A DNA stretch of 64,000 nt from Lachnospiraceae bacterium (GTDB lineage Bacteria > Bacillota > Clostridia > Lachnospirales > Lachnospiraceae). Below, piece after piece: positions 12,651 to 56,600 of the stretch (position 1 is the stretch's first letter; the number at the start of each line of letters is the position of its first letter). The position numbers and the translations under genes were made by a program. The stretch covers positions 1,364,001-1,428,000 of the forward strand of contig JAKVNF010000001.1 in NCBI GenBank assembly GCA_022483465.1, given 5' to 3'. The notes under the pieces are model-generated. The model was not told where the DNA came from, did no database searches, and saw only the letters and a program-made list of their open reading frames with translations.

Positions 12651-14093
12651 TCAGTTCTTCTTCCAGACAGAGGGGACCAGGGTAATCAGCATCGGATAGA
12701 GCTCCAGGCGCCCCGCCAGCATGTCAAACATCAGGACATACTTGGACAGGAGCGAGAGCCCGTTGAAGTTCGCGGCGGGGCCGACGTCGGCAAAGCCGGG
12801 TCCGATGTTGTTGAAGGTCGCCGCGACGGCGGTGAAGTCGGTCATGAAATCCCACTTGGGATCGATCGTCAGGATGAACACCGAGAGGATGAACAGGAAG
12901 GTGTAGGTGGAGAGATACACCGAGGTGCTCTTGATCGTCTGCTTGTCCAGGGGCTTTCCGTCAAACTGCAGCGTGGAGACCGCCTTGGGGTGCAGGAACT
13001 CCCGAATCTGCAGCCGCATGCTGCGGAACAGGATCACCACCCGGGAGACCTTGATGCCGCCGCCCGTGGAACCCGCGCAGGCACCGCAGAACATCAGAAA
13101 CAGCAGGATCCCCTTGGAGAGGGTGGGCCAGGTGTCAAAGTCAAAGGTGCTGTATCCCGTCGTCGTGATGATTGAGGCAACCTGGAAGGCTGCGTTGTGG
13201 AAGGCGAGAAACAGGCTGTTGAAATAGCCGCGGACGTTGAAGGTGATCATCGCAATGGAGGCCGCAATGATGATCAGGTAGCAGCGCACCTCGTCCATCC
13301 GGAAGGCATCCTTCCTGTCATGCCGCAGCAGCAGATAGTAGAAGTTGAAGTTCACTCCGAACAGGATCATGAAGATCGAGAGGATCGCCTGCTGCAGCAC
13401 CGTGTAGGAGGCGGCACTGTCGTTTCGGACGCCAAAGCCGCCGGTGCCGGCCGAGCCGAACGACATGCACAGCGCGTCAAAGATCGGCATCCTGGCAAGA
13501 AGCAGGAGCACGATCTGCACGATGGTCATGCCGAAGTAGATCAGGTACAGGATCTTCGCGCTCTCCTTGAGCTTGGGCACCAGCTTCCCGAAGGAGGGGC
13601 CCGGGCTCTCCGCCCGCATCAGCTGGGCGCTGTAGCCGCCCGTCAGCGGGACGATGGCCAGCATGAAGACGATGACGCCCATGCCGCCCACCCAGTGGGT
13701 AAAGCTGCGCCAGAACAGGCTTGCGTGGGACAGCGCCTCCACATCGGTGAGAATGCTGGCACCGGTGGTGGTAAAGCCGGAGATCGTCTCAAACAGCGCG
13801 TTGGAGAAGTTCGGGATGTCCCCGTTGATCACAAAGGGAAGGGCGCCGAAGATGGAGATCAGCACCCAGGCCAGGGCGACACTGACAATGCCCTCCCTGG
13901 CGTAAAACACAAATTTCTTGGGCTTTCGCAGGGTCAGAAGAAAGCCGATGCCCAGGCACACCACTGCCATGATGAGGAAGGACCAGCCCTGCTGCTCCTG
14001 GTACAAGAGCCCTGTCAGCGCGGGAAGCAGCAGAAGCACTGCCTCCAGCTTGAGCACCATACCCTCGATATAGCGAACGATTGCGTAATGCAT
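12651..14093 (-). CDS. trkH: Trk/Ktr potassium uptake membrane subunit
   Basis: A 480-residue channel-like protein of the TrkH/KtrB superfamily. The four P-loop filter regions are visible as ISGFTTTGAS, FGSAGTGGFG, IITTTGYSTFD and FNNIGPGFADVGP. Each centres on the glycine that coordinates K+. The C-terminus ends after a last membrane segment. It is four bases downstream of trkA in the same operon, so K+ gating should depend on the RCK partner, which is interrupted here. Confidence 0.95.
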   Translation of the reverse strand: MHYAIVRYIEGMVLKLEAVLLLLPALTGLLYQEQQGWSFLIMAVVCLGIGFLLTLRKPKKFVFYAREGIVSVALAWVLISIFGALPFVINGDIPNFSNALFETISGFTTTGASILTDVEALSHASLFWRSFTHWVGGMGVIVFMLAIVPLTGGYSAQLMRAESPGPSFGKLVPKLKESAKILYLIYFGMTIVQIVLLLLARMPIFDALCMSFGSAGTGGFGVRNDSAASYTVLQQAILSIFMILFGVNFNFYYLLLRHDRKDAFRMDEVRCYLIIIAASIAMITFNVRGYFNSLFLAFHNAAFQVASIITTTGYSTFDFDTWPTLSKGILLFLMFCGACAGSTGGGIKVSRVVILFRSMRLQIREFLHPKAVSTLQFDGKPLDKQTIKSTSVYLSTYTFLFILSVFILTIDPKWDFMTDFTAVAATFNNIGPGFADVGPAANFNGLSLLSKYVLMFDMLAGRLELYPMLITLVPSVWKKN

Positions 14094-14096
14094 TGC

Positions 14097-15725
14097 TTAC
14101 TTCTCCAGAATGTCCTTGATATCCCCGAATCCCTTGTGCGTTGTCACGAGAATCACGCTGTCGCCCTCCTCGATGGAGGTCTGTCCGTTGGGGAGAATGG
14201 ACTTGCCGTTCCGGATGATGCAGGCAATCAGCACGTTGTCCTTGGTGTGGAGCTTTGCCAGGGGGATGCCTACCACAGAGGGCTCATTGTGAATGGCAAA
14301 CTCCAGCGCCTCCGCCTTGCCCTCCACGATGTAGTACAGGGTCTCCACGTTGCTGCCCAGGGAGTTCTGCATGGCGCGGGCATAGCGGATGATGGACTCC
14401 GCGGTGATGTTCTTGGGGTGGATCATGCTGCCCAGGTTCAGGCGGTCGATGATCGTGTCGATGGAAATCCGGTTTGTCTTGGTGATGACCTTGGCCGCCT
14501 GGTTGCACTGCTGGGCGAACAGGGACAGGAAGATGTTCTCCTCGTCGATGCCGGTCAGCGTGACAAAGGACTCGCAGGTCTCCACGCCCTCCTCCATCAG
14601 GATGTCCTGATCCGTGCCGTCCCCGTTGATGATGATGGCCTTCGGGAGGTTCTCGGAGAGCCACTCACAGCGGCTCCGGTCCTTCTCGATGATCTTGACC
14701 CCGATCCCGTAGGAGAGGAGCTGCTTCGCCAGGTAGTAGGCGATGGTGCCGCCGCCGACGATCATCGTGTTGGCAACCCGGTGGATCTCGACGCCGATCT
14801 TGGAGAAGAAATGGCCCTTTCACTTTTTTTGTGGGATGAGCCCCTCCTGACCTCCGCTCAGAGCCCTGGATCCGGCTTCTCCTCTGGTGCCCAATAAGCC
14901 TTTTGGGTTACTGTAATCTTTGCCGGACCGTGGGAGCATCGCCGAGGGGCCCACGGTCTCGGAGCTGTCTCTGCCAGTCCAGACTACCACTTGAAGTGGT
15001 AGTACTTTTTAGAAGGTATCCTCTATGGATTATCTCCTTCTGGTGCATCACACAAGAAAAATGAAAGACCCGAAGAAATTGCGGGCATGGGAGGGTTCCG
15101 CAATGACGCTGATGGTGTCCCCCGCGTGCAGCACAAAGGAGCCGCCGGGAATCACCACCTCGCCGCGGCGCTGGACCGCGCAGACGAGGACCTCCGCCTT
15201 GACCCTGCTGCCCAGCTCTGTCAGCGAGCAGTTGTCCAGGATGGACCCGTGGGGAATCACGAACTGCAGGAGCTCGACTCTGCCCCTGGCGAAGGTGTCG
15301 ATCTTGATCGCGGAGGGGAAGCGCAGCAGCCGGGAGATCTCCGAGGCCGCGGCCCGCTCCGGGTTGATCGTCATGGAAAGACCCAGCTCCTCCCGGATGT
15401 ACCCGATCTCGTCGTTGTACAAAGGGTTCCGGACCCGCGCCACCGTGCTGCAGTTGCCCGCCTTCTTGGCGAACAGGCAGCACAGGAGGTTGAGCTCGTC
15501 CGAATTCGTCACGGCAATGAGGAGGTTGGTGTCCTCAATGCCCGCTTCCTTCAGGACGGAATAGCTGGCTCCGTTTCCCACCACACCCATCACGTCAAAA
15601 TTGTCCGTGATGTCGGTGACCACATCGCTGTCCGTGTCGATGACCGCAATGTCGTGGCCCTCACCGCTCAGCCGCTCCACAATGGTCCTTCCGACCTTGC
15701 CGCAGCCGACTACTATGATGCGCAT
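14097..15725 (-). pseudogene. trkA: TrkA potassium uptake regulator, split by a MITE
   Basis: Two open segments together encode one normal-length TrkA. 15048-15725 (225 codons, MRIIVVGCGKVGRTIVERLS) carries the first NAD-binding RCK_N and RCK_C modules. 14097-14765 (222 codons from MIVGGGTIAYYLAKQLL) carries the second pair. Removing 14813-15079 (element plus one target copy) restores the frame: HARNFF continues directly into SKIGVEIHRVANTMIVGGG. With the insert, the first half ends in GSFIFLV and a stop. The second half has an in-frame TGA within the element and no ribosome binding site before its first ATG. The first module might still be made; loss of the second is likely. Confidence 0.92.
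14805..15079. mobile_element. 259-bp ISL3-type MITE inserted in trkA, with GAAGAAAT target duplication
   Basis: The element spans 14813-15071 and is bounded by GAAGAAAT at 14805-14812 and 15072-15079. Its ends, GGCCCTTTCAC... and the complement of ...GAAAGACCC, form imperfect inverted repeats of about 26 bp. Both ends match those of the complete ISL3-family element at 54839-56592. A 35-bp internal block with a CCGTGGG/CCCACGG hairpin (about 14922-14960) recurs almost unchanged in that IS at 56448-56482. There is no transposase, so it is a non-autonomous derivative. A second palindrome (ACTACCACTT/AAGTGGTAGT) followed by T's lies at about 14984-15011. Confidence 0.93.
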
Positions 15726-15762
15726 TCCTTATTCCCCTCCAAATGTATTGCCGATTCCGACC

Positions 15763-17874
15763 TTACAGTTCAAACAGCATGTCCTCGTAGGTCGGGAACG
15801 GCCATGCCTTCTTGTCCACCAGCGTCTCCAGCTCATCGCAGGGCTTGCGCAGCCGCTCCATGGCGGGATCGATGGTGTCCTTGTAGTAAAACGACTGCTC
15901 CTTGGCGTCCGTGATGCCCTGGGCCTTGTCCACCAGAGCCTGCAGCTCGTCCAGAGCCTCCTGGGCGGCGTCGATCCGGTCCACACACTTCTGGAGCTTC
16001 TCCGTCTCGTTGTGGAAGATCACGCCGGCATTCGCCGCAGCCGTGATGGTCTCCGCCTGCGCCTTCACGAACTTCATGCAGGCGGGCAGGATCTGCTTCT
16101 GCGCCATGTCGATCATCGTCATTGCCTCGATGTTCTTCGTCTTGGCGTAGTTCTCGTAGATGATCTCCGAGCGGGACTCCAGCTCGGGCTGCGTGAAGAT
16201 GTGGAACTTCTCAAACAGCTTCACGGCCTTGTCCGTGGTCAGAGACGGCACCGCCTCGATCGTGGAGGGGATGTTCGGAAGGCCGCGGCGCGCTGCCTCC
16301 TCCACCCACTCCTTCGAGTAGCCGTTGCCCTCGAAGATGATCCGCTGGTGCTCGGTCATGTTCTTCTTGATCAGGTCATGGACCGCCATGTCGAAGTCCT
16401 GTGCCCCCTCGAGCTCATCTGCCGCGTCGGAGAAGGCCTCCGCCACGATGGCATTGAGGGTCGTGGTGGACGTCGCCATGGAGTCGGAAGAGCCCACCAT
16501 GCGGAACTCAAACTTGTTTCCGGTGAACGCAAAGGGCGAGGTCCGGTTCCGGTCCGTGGCATCCTTGCGGATGTCCGGCAGCGCGGAGACGCCGGTGCGC
16601 AGCATGCCGCCCTTGATGTGGCGGTCGGCGATGCCGGTCTCCACCAGCTGCCGCACCACGTCGTCGAGCTGCTCGCCCAGGAACATGGACACGATGGCCG
16701 GCGGCGCCTCGTTGGCGCCCAGGCGCAGGTCATTGCCCACATCCGAGGCGCTCTGGCGCAGGAGATCAGCGTGGACGTCCACCGCCTTGACGATGCAGGA
16801 GAGAATCAGAAGGAAGCGGATGTTCCGCTCCGGGGTCTCTCCGGGATCGAGGAGGTTGACGCCGGTGTCCGTCGTCAGGGACCAGTTGTTGTGCTTGCCG
16901 GAGCCGTTGACGCCGGCAAAGGGCTTCTCGTGCAGAAGGACCCGCAGGCCGTGGTGCTCCGCCACCCGCTTCATGGTCTCCATGATCAGCTGGTTGTGGT
17001 CGGTGGCCAGGTTGGACTCCTCAAAGACCGGTGCCAGCTCGTGCTGTCCCGGTGCCACCTCGTTGTGCTGGGTCTTGGCCGGGACGCCGAGCTTCCAGAG
17101 CTCCGCGTTCAGGTCCTTCATGAACTCGCCGACCCGCTCGCGGATGACGCCGAAGTAGTGATCCTCCATCTCCTGTCCCTTCGGGGCCGGTGCGCCAAAG
17201 AGGGTGCGGCCGGTGAAGATGAGGTCTGTTCTCTGCAGGTACTCGTTTGCGTCGACCAGGAAGTACTCCTGCTCCGCGCCGGTGCTGGACGTGACCCGCG
17301 TGGACTCGGTGTCGCCGAAGAGCCGCACGATGCGCAGCGCCTGGCGGCTGATTGCCTCCATGGAGCGTAGGAGCGGGGTCTTCTTGTCCAGGGCCTCGCC
17401 CTTGTAGGAGTAGAATGCCGTGGGGATGCAGAGCGTGACGCCGGTTCCCGCCTCCTTCAGGAAGGCAGGGCTCGTCACATCCCAGGCGGTGTAGCCCCGC
17501 GCCTCAAAGGTGGAGCGCAGGCCGCCGGAGGGGAAGCTGGAGGCATCGGGCTCGCCCTTGATCAGGTCCTTCCCGGTGAAGGTGGTGACCATGCGGCCCT
17601 CCTCGTCGGGCATCCCCACAAAGGCATCGTGCTTCTCCGCCGTGATGCCGGTCAGCGGCTGGAACCAGTGGGTGTAGTGGGTTGCCCCGTTCTCCATGGC
17701 CCAGTCCTTCATCGCCTTTGCCATCACGTCTGCGTCGGACAGGGACAGGTCCCCGCCGTTCTTCATGACGCTCATGACGTTCTTGAAGACACTCTTGGGG
17801 AGCCGCTCCTTCATCTTGGCGACGGTAAAGACGTTCCTGCCGTACAGCTCATCAATTCTCACTTTTTCTTCCAT
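15763..17874 (-). CDS. glnN: Glutamine synthetase type III
   Basis: A 703-residue protein, the usual length of GSIII, which forms glutamine from glutamate, ammonia and ATP. Recognisable stretches are [20 protein letters not shown] near residue 60, [13 protein letters not shown] with catalytic Glu residues, [18 protein letters not shown] and [11 protein letters not shown] in the active site, and FRMVGSSDS downstream. Clostridia often rely on this type instead of GSI. GGAGAG lies before the ATG. It forms a minus-strand block with the U32-family gene 31 bases upstream. Confidence 0.96.
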
Positions 17875-54830: not shown

Positions 54831-56600
54831 CAAAATTTGGGTCTTTCATTTTTCTTGTGTGATGCACTAAAAGAAGGCAGCCTATAGAGAATATCTTCTA
54901 TTTACAAAAAGAGATTTCCTGATATCATCTCGATTGCACGTCGACCAAGATATGCAATACGGGATAAAAAGGAAACCTCTTATGAATCAGAATTATACAT
55001 ACACCGAGGCGAATGGGCAAATGTCTTTTGCTGCCCGGACTCAAAATGACTATCTGATGTTCCCAAGCCACCTGACGGGGTTCCATCAGGAGAGCGTTGA
55101 AGAGGTTCCTATTCGAGACGTCAGGCCCTTCCACTCCATGCGGAAGAGCAAACTGAGTGAGAATACCTTCAAAAGGGCTTATATTCTGCGCGGTAAATTG
55201 GACCAGCTGGACCATCCTGTATGCTCTTGCTGCGGGCGCAGAATGTACAAGAATCAGACCTACCACACGAAGATCAAACACATTCCCTTTCAGGCATGCC
55301 AAACCATCATTGAGTGCGACAAGTACCAGTGGAGATGCAATCTCTGTGGCAAGACCATCACACCGGATGTCGCGTTCAAGGCAGATGATTCGATGATTAC
55401 AAAGGAGCTTGAGCAGCTGATCATTCGCTATCTTTCTATGGATGAATTTACCCTTACGGACACGGCAATCATTACTGGCGTCAACATCAATACGATCAAG
55501 AAGATCGATCTTAAGCGTCTGAAGAGTCTTTACGCGGATGAGAATGGCAAGCTCAAAAAGCCTGCCGCCTATGCAAGGTATCTTGCCATTGACGAGTTCA
55601 AGCTGCATAACGGACACAAATATGCGACGCACATCATAGACCTGATAACCGGTGCGGTGCTGTTCATCCGAGCAGGCAAAACAAAGGCCGTTGTAGAAGA
55701 ATTCATGGAGCTGGTGGGTGACGACTGGATGCATCATGTAGAGGCCGTTGCCATGGATATGAACAGCGACTTCCAGGAGGCTTTCAAGGCAAAATGCGGT
55801 TGGATCCAGATCGTTTATGATCATTTCCACATCGTCAAGAACTTCAACGAGAAGGTCATTGCCGAGGTTCGGAAGGAGGAACAGATCCGCCTGAAGAAGG
55901 AAGGCCTGGTCGAGGAAGCTGCTATCCTGAAGGGGTCAAGGAAGATACTCTGTGCCAGCAGGGAGTCCCTGCAGAAACACGATCAGGAAGCCCGTGAGGG
56001 CAAGGTGTGCCGCAAGGGATCTGCGATCTTCGGTACGACCGATTACAGGCATACCCATGACGATTTCGAGCGGCGATACGACGACATCATCAACTCGAAC
56101 AAGCTGCTGTTCACCTGTGATCTGATCAAGCAGGCCATGCAGGAAGCATATGCCTCAGCCAATCAGGCGACGATGATCGAGAAGTTTACAGATATCATCG
56201 ACTGGTGCAGGGGCACGAAAAATAAGCACTTTCTCTGGTTTGCCAGGCTCATTGAGAACCACTTTGACGGCATTGTGGGATACGGGCTCTGTCCGATCAG
56301 CTCCGGGAAGATAGAGGGGATCAACGCACACATCAAGGTCATCCGCAGGAAAGCCTATGGCCTTCCAGATGATGAGTACTTTTTCCTAAAGATCATGGAT
56401 GCATCCAGAAATCCGTACAAGCGGATCTGATGGAGAACGCTGTTCCGAGACCGTGGGCCCCTCGGCGATGCTCCCACGGTCCGCCCGGGAGTACAGATAC
56501 ACGGAGAGCAGAGGGCACCTGTGGAGGACCGGGGGCAGAGGACCTCGGAGACGGTCAGGAAGGGCTCATCCCACAAAAAAAGTGAAAGGGCCCAAAATTT
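54831..56600. mobile_element. Complete ISL3-family insertion sequence with CAAAATTT target duplication
   Basis: The element spans 54839-56592 (1754 bp), with CAAAATTT at 54831-54838 and 56593-56600. Left end GGGTCTTTCATTTTTCTTGT and the complement of the right end GGCCCTTTCACTTTTTTTGT are imperfect inverted repeats. It encodes one intact transposase on the plus strand. After the transposase, 56448-56482 carries a CCGTGGG/CCCACGG hairpin block shared with the MITE in trkA. An 8-bp duplication is typical of ISL3. Confidence 0.95.
54982..56430 (+). CDS. ISL3-family transposase
   Basis: A 482-residue DDE transposase from the ATG at 54982 (AAGGAAA upstream); in-frame ATG 54952 or TTG 54934 are less likely. 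The N-terminal zinc finger reads CSCCGRRM ... CQTIIECDKYQWRCNLCGK. The catalytic core has AIDEFKLHNGHKYATHIIDL (first D), AVAMDMNSDFQEAFKAKCGW (second D) and KIEGINAHIKVIRRKAYGLP (E). No frameshift or stop is present, so it is probably active and able to mobilise related non-autonomous copies. Confidence 0.95.
   Translation: MNQNYTYTEANGQMSFAARTQNDYLMFPSHLTGFHQESVEEVPIRDVRPFHSMRKSKLSENTFKRAYILRGKLDQLDHPVCSCCGRRMYKNQTYHTKIKHIPFQACQTIIECDKYQWRCNLCGKTITPDVAFKADDSMITKELEQLIIRYLSMDEFTLTDTAIITGVNINTIKKIDLKRLKSLYADENGKLKKPAAYARYLAIDEFKLHNGHKYATHIIDLITGAVLFIRAGKTKAVVEEFMELVGDDWMHHVEAVAMDMNSDFQEAFKAKCGWIQIVYDHFHIVKNFNEKVIAEVRKEEQIRLKKEGLVEEAAILKGSRKILCASRESLQKHDQEAREGKVCRKGSAIFGTTDYRHTHDDFERRYDDIINSNKLLFTCDLIKQAMQEAYASANQATMIEKFTDIIDWCRGTKNKHFLWFARLIENHFDGIVGYGLCPISSGKIEGINAHIKVIRRKAYGLPDDEYFFLKIMDASRNPYKRI

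Follow-up and report, generated by a model that had tools for sequence, protein, structure and literature searches.

Insertion of an ISL3-type MITE between the two RCK units of trkA in a Lachnospiraceae bacterium

In a 64,000-nucleotide stretch of the genome of a Lachnospiraceae bacterium (assembly GCA_022483465.1, contig JAKVNF010000001.1; hereafter the window, to which all coordinates refer unless another contig or locus is named), the gene trkA for the two-RCK regulator of the potassium channel TrkH is split by a 259-bp miniature inverted-repeat transposable element (MITE) of ISL3 type. Insertional inactivation of a normal two-RCK trkA by this element very probably explains the arrangement as a whole, with no need for a new kind of regulator.

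The element lies at 14813-15071 (no strand assigned), is non-autonomous, contains stop codons in all six frames and is enclosed by two exactly matching 8-bp target duplications, GAAGAAAT, at 14805-14812 and 15072-15079. Its terminal inverted repeats are imperfect, 22 nt each (14817-14838 on the plus strand, 15046-15067 on the minus strand) and 86% complementary; an internal hairpin at 14926-14958, with 16-nt arms of 81% complementarity, has a sequence also found in the full ISL3 element. Element and one duplication together make 267 nt, or 89 codons, so that excision is frame-neutral, and the flanks joined with a single duplication give one 453-residue frame that runs through HARNFF-SKIGVEIHRV with zero stops. 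The joined flanks align with the uninterrupted trkA of a related species, G031, without gaps over 1361 nt at 91% identity, and this empty site provides independent confirmation of the insertion. G031 itself, the closest relative, has two trkA genes with full-length frames (contigs C25 and C29), 96% and 73% identical to half 1, a duplicity due to either a paralogue or contamination.

The wider comparison gave the same picture. A search of 60 relatives with half 1 gave matches at E 1e-20 in 42, and in 40 of these the match lay within an open frame of 437-499 codons; the other two were G034, at a contig edge (351 codons), and G039, with a 234-codon frame of 31% identity. Alignment to the joined protein shows both halves covered in one frame in all 29 unnamed relatives with returned loci. 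Of the named loci, 38 of 39 run across the junction without interruption and the remaining one (L070) starts downstream of it; the 39 include two loci from one assembly, and the named and unnamed sets overlap. The closest named relatives, Lachnospiraceae RUG433 and UBA2734 (RUG presumably denoting rumen genomes), are both 97.6% identical.

Read along the minus strand, a gene that by its size and sequence is presumably glutamine synthetase-like and of type III (15763-17874) is followed by trkA half 1, the element, half 2 and trkH. Half 1 (15048-15725) encodes 225 residues with a TrkA_N and a TrkA_C domain (RCK1), the last seven of which are MITE-coded: read from half 1, the element yields GSFIFLV and then a stop. 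Half 2 (14097-14765) encodes 222 residues, again TrkA_N plus TrkA_C (RCK2), and trkH (12651-14093, 480 residues, open frame) starts 3 nt past its end. By Pfam, TrkA_C spans residues 153-217 of half 1, and the TrkA_N domain of half 2 begins at its residue 1; the cut thus falls at the domain border between TrkA_C of RCK1 and TrkA_N of RCK2, in the inter-RCK linker. Both units are present, but in two frames, so the two-RCK arrangement in one chain is not found here. With ATG, GTG or TTG, half 2 can start only at 14765, as an in-element TGA shuts the upstream frame; rarer start codons could still apply. A start at 14765 leaves out the 13-residue linker SKIGVEIHRVANT, and the first Rossmann strand of half 2, compared by eye, is about three residues shorter at its start than that of half 1. 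The best PDB match of half 1 is the TrkA chain 4j9u (E 6.7e-47), compared with 1.6e-12 for KtrC and 1.6e-10 or weaker for KtrA chains, and half 2 matches TM1088B (3l4b_C, E 1.1e-20). The two halves look freshly separated, not decayed.

The element belongs to a family of some size. The genome (4.3 Mb, 4 contigs) holds at least 13 full-length copies, a lower bound like the other copy counts for this MITE since 40 of 83 candidates were scored, besides at least one copy that another insertion has broken up and a fragment of the left end, which belongs to a relic insertion sequence (IS). Over 259 bp, two copies are identical to that in trkA, eight differ at 3-5 positions and one at 8, and the remaining copy is one base shorter and more diverged. 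Exact 8-bp duplications flank 11 of the 13 full copies; in one copy 7 of 8 bases agree and in one (L013) there is no duplication. A scan of the genus found a match in 3 of 62 genomes including this one, partial or weak in the other two. One of the identical copies splits another gene (locus L002, 833-2536; C3 near 368475), separating an RRXRR domain from an HNH domain; this gene is presumably IscB-like. A second non-autonomous element, of 308 bp, with ends GGCGTTAGT.. and an 8-bp duplication, sits inside one of the 259-bp MITE copies (L017, 1581-1888; C1:449485-449792).

An intact ISL3-family IS with the same ends stands within the window (54839-56592, plus strand, 1754 bp), with the same 8 bp on both sides (CAAAATTT on the plus strand). 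Its transposase (54979-56430, plus strand) scores above the cut-offs of PF01610 and NF033550 (222 vs 180 bits for the latter), and the first 31 and last 29 bp of the MITE are identical to its ends. By these shared ends, its 8-bp duplications, its many copies and its lack of a transposase the 259-bp element is an ISL3-type MITE. The genome carries a high load of this one ISL3 IS, with at least 18 full copies at 99-100% identity (a lower bound, 40 of 76 candidates having been scored), and the copy in the window is, judging by the identical ends only, a probable source of the transposase that mobilises the MITE. Three examined copies of the IS (L122, L123, L124) also contain the 308-bp element. 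In L122 and L123 it interrupts the IS at a shared octamer, nt 1601-1608, but faces opposite ways in the two, so that this site was probably hit twice independently; the copy in L124 occupies IS nt 1592-1599.

As for the origin of the MITE, a plain deletion of the abundant IS was considered and rejected, the shared left 151 bp and right 62 bp being only 79% and 84% identical. The left end of a relic ISL3 IS (L121, C3:769900-770552) agrees with the MITE at 94.6% identity over 168 bp and runs on into a fragment of a transposase gene, whose product shares 85.6% identity over 167 residues with the transposase of the abundant IS; a full copy of the latter (C3:766230-767982) ends about 1.9 kb away. 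In the relative G074, too, a left end 94% similar to the MITE over 104 bp leads into a related transposase. The relic likely represents the parent lineage, and we infer from these similarities that the MITE derived from a sister IS lineage of the relic type and is now moved by the abundant IS.

These results bear out most of what the earlier note had proposed from the letters of the window. It had described a MITE splitting trkA, which agrees with the exact duplications, the at least 13 genome copies, the stops in all frames and the G031 empty site; an ISL3 type, consistent with the same-ended IS nearby; a position between the two RCK modules, as the Pfam boundaries place it; excision without change of frame; and an intact trkH, whose frame is indeed open. 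Its claim that the insertion is recent is supported by the two identical copies elsewhere, the exact duplication and the open frames of both trkA halves. The alignment with relatives' trkA that it suggested has now been made, and the natural two-gene arrangement that it named as speaking against an insertion was found neither among the 29 unnamed relatives aligned nor among the 38 named loci reaching the junction.

The position of the insertion is unsurprising, because the element inserts preferentially at AT-rich octamers; these are scarce in trkA, and one cluster of them lies at the linker. All 13 left-flank octamers of the MITE copies have at least 6 A/T of 8, as do 4.5% of the octamers in the window, the octamer of L013, which has no duplication, being weak evidence for the preference. 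In trkA, 28 of 1355 octamers are this rich, and 4 of these 28 overlap residues 216-232, against 58 of all 1355. The chance of hitting the border is thus about 1 in 7 given the target preference and about 1 in 23 without it. The 30-bp window around the insertion is not extreme in A/T, 14.8% of windows being as rich. Selection for a position at the domain border was considered and is not needed, as target preference and luck can explain the site.

The signals around the junction suggest that the two halves fare differently in translation. The start of trkA, now that of half 1, has a strong signal, with anti-Shine-Dalgarno pairing of -9.8 kcal/mol; at the start of half 2 the best pairing is -3.2 kcal/mol, the median of 1000 random 22-mers, and no Shine-Dalgarno sequence is recognisable. 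The earlier note spoke of a lost ribosome-binding site. None is recognisable indeed, but none was there to lose, because half 2 was the inner part of a fused gene; it has instead lost the supply of ribosomes that used to reach it from half 1. The stop of half 1 is separated from the ATG of half 2 by 282 nt with a strong RNA fold, the sense-strand RNA of the MITE reaching -99.1 kcal/mol (z -3.5; 0 of 200 shuffles as stable). Translation through the element is excluded by its stops. No internal start signal of the TM1088 type and no stop/start overlap for half 2 was found at the junction, and a scan for one promoter type, sigma-70-like, found none between 14050 and 16050, element included. The element has no terminator-like hairpin on the sense strand; its sole terminator-like hairpin, a perfect one with 10-nt arms at 14983-15003, is so on the plus strand only, antisense to trkA. 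Within half 2, the minus strand has a weak terminator-like match at 14586-14573, and 14050-16050 as a whole has two terminator-like matches against 1.2 on average in shuffles. Rfam returned one chance-level match on the element, at 18.3 bits vs a gathering score of 63. Because the start signal of half 2 is no better than chance and no sigma-70-like site was found, RCK2 is presumably made poorly, and 954 nt of mRNA ahead of trkH would then go untranslated.

What this would mean for potassium uptake can be judged from better-known systems. In the Vibrio TrkH-TrkA complex the N2 domain of RCK2 keeps its contact with TrkH (HN2) in all structures, whereas ATP abolishes the contact made by N1, a likely constraint on the pore (PMC6987127). 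Arg100 of TrkA is needed for ATP-induced opening. Residues at the corresponding positions, read by eye from the alignments, are mostly conserved: half 2 has Asp and Glu at the positions of Asp286 and Glu293 (HN2), and half 1 has Arg at that of Arg100 and Asp at that of Asp44 (HN1), but Thr at that of Gln40 (HN1). In E. coli, deletion of trkA depolarises the cell (PMC6987127), and an in-frame 84-bp deletion (nt 513-597), which we read as lying within RCK1, acts like a full deletion (PMC4900610). Given the RCK2 contact in Vibrio and the effects of trkA deletion in E. coli, loss or misregulation of Trk is to be expected, and we infer that the system here is inactive or unregulated, with polarity on trkH. 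The suggestion of the earlier note that half a TrkA is sufficient fits poorly with this, as the expressible half is RCK1, the lasting Vibrio contact lies in RCK2 and even the short E. coli deletion acts like a full one; its other option, deregulated potassium uptake, appears plausible. A second, intact potassium system and polarity on trkH were left out of that note. Elsewhere in the genome an intact pair is encoded, a 216-residue single-RCK protein beside a 451-residue TrkH-family protein, which we read as Ktr-like; of 62 genomes of the genus, 50, this one included, match the single-RCK protein at E 1e-30. The other importer families searched, KdpA and Kup, had no match in this genome at E 0.001, with controls matched in 5 and 6 of 14 named genomes, respectively. 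The second pair probably carries potassium uptake.

With the insertion and its target duplication, the uninterrupted site of the relatives and the location at the domain border all established, the favoured inactivation would have run as follows. The MITE, whose transposase was probably supplied in trans by the abundant full-length ISL3 IS, would have landed recently at an AT-rich octamer in the inter-RCK linker of a normal two-RCK trkA. Ribosomes would now halt after seven element codons and free RCK1 alone; RCK2, devoid of a start signal, would be made little or not at all; TrkH would be made in reduced amount, without an anchored gating ring. Trk would then be lost or unregulated, and the intact single-RCK/TrkH-family pair would take over potassium uptake. 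Several points weigh against this course of events. The open probability of TrkH is about 0.7 when it is not assembled with TrkA (PMC6987127), so that loss of TrkA may open TrkH, not silence it. The start signal of trkH is moderate (-6.4 kcal/mol, the most stable tenth of random 22-mers beginning at -6.8), and trkH may be translated from it; the promoter scan covered one promoter type, and polarity of the Rho type is an assumption. Finally, the frames of trkH and of both halves have remained open and the handful of functional residues checked is mostly conserved, so that use of TrkA in two pieces is possible.

The last point leads to the alternatives. If both halves are produced, they could come together in trans on TrkH as a gating ring of eight RCK units, an idea favoured by the clean cut at the domain border, the two open frames and the match of half 2 to TM1088B, since TM1088A and TM1088B form a two-chain octameric ring (PMC4380455); we hold it improbable, as half 2 lacks a recognisable Shine-Dalgarno sequence, has 282 nt and a strong fold before its ATG, and has no two-gene counterpart among the relatives aligned. 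Slightly less credible still is that RCK1 alone regulates TrkH in the manner of KtrA, a single-RCK protein that assembles into rings of eight (PMC6987127). With its TrkA_N and TrkA_C domains half 1 is a complete unit and has a strong start signal, and to that extent the earlier note was right to liken it to KtrA; in sequence, however, it is far closer to TrkA 4j9u than to any Ktr chain, and the lasting TrkH contact, HN2, sits in the N-domain of RCK2 (PMC6987127). Either a working two-piece ring or a working single-RCK TrkA would amount to a very recent, transposon-made fission at a domain border, an outcome to which we give little credence.

The element could instead act mainly through RNA, its folded transcript serving as an RNase III-type cleavage site that separates half 1 from trkH expression, with the protein split secondary. 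The stability of the fold and the RNase III cleavage described for Correia-element transcripts (PMC10969869) speak for this, yet such folding is expected of any element with inverted repeats, cleavage does not replace the translational stop, and the single Rfam match is far below its gathering score, all of which leaves this explanation unlikely. An assembly artefact or a natural two-gene arrangement is hardly conceivable: repeats can mis-join assemblies, but the element is short, the assembly has 4 contigs, the duplication is exact here and at 10 other copies, a related species has the empty site, and only fused genes occur among the relatives aligned.

The probable inactivation of trkA by insertion has parallels among known elements and regulators. 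Like other ISL3-type MITEs, the element has the ends of an ISL3 IS (31 and 29 bases), makes 8-bp duplications and enters AT-rich targets; it differs in being no simple deletion of the abundant IS, its left 168 bp being 94.6% identical to the relic on C3. Gene inactivation by MITEs has been described before (PMC10969869). Chunjie of Geobacter uraniireducens, a 235-bp MITE of similar size, likewise interrupts one of two ion-uptake operons (PMC10969869), but element and transporter (phosphate uptake) are others. By its title, as given in the reference list of that review, the primary paper on Chunjie found the operon structure undisturbed, whereas in trkA the insertion breaks a coding frame. The halves match the first and second RCK units of Vibrio TrkA (PDB 4j9u, 4g65) in order, and trkH follows, whereas the chain here is interrupted in the inter-RCK linker. 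The Thermotoga maritima TM1088A/TM1088B ring resembles it in having TrkA parts on two chains from one locus; TM1088A, however, is described as lacking a C-domain, and the internal ribosome-binding site and overlapping codons of that locus (PMC4380455) were not found here. Titles and abstract openings of the literature on TrkA and insertion sequences gave no split trkA of this kind, and among the literature matches listed nothing was found on TrkA half proteins and nothing relevant on ISL3 MITEs of Lachnospiraceae or the rumen.

The locus is a clean and recent case of a MITE at the domain border of a regulator, each half of which is a complete domain pair. Should the halves still work, it would serve as a natural experiment on the need of TrkA for its covalent linker, and a two-piece ring, if true, would be the reverse of the duplication and fusion thought to have made TrkA. 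If, as expected, they do not, the insertion adds one more MITE family with ISL3 ends and suggests that Trk can be lost from a strain of this group that retains its second potassium system.
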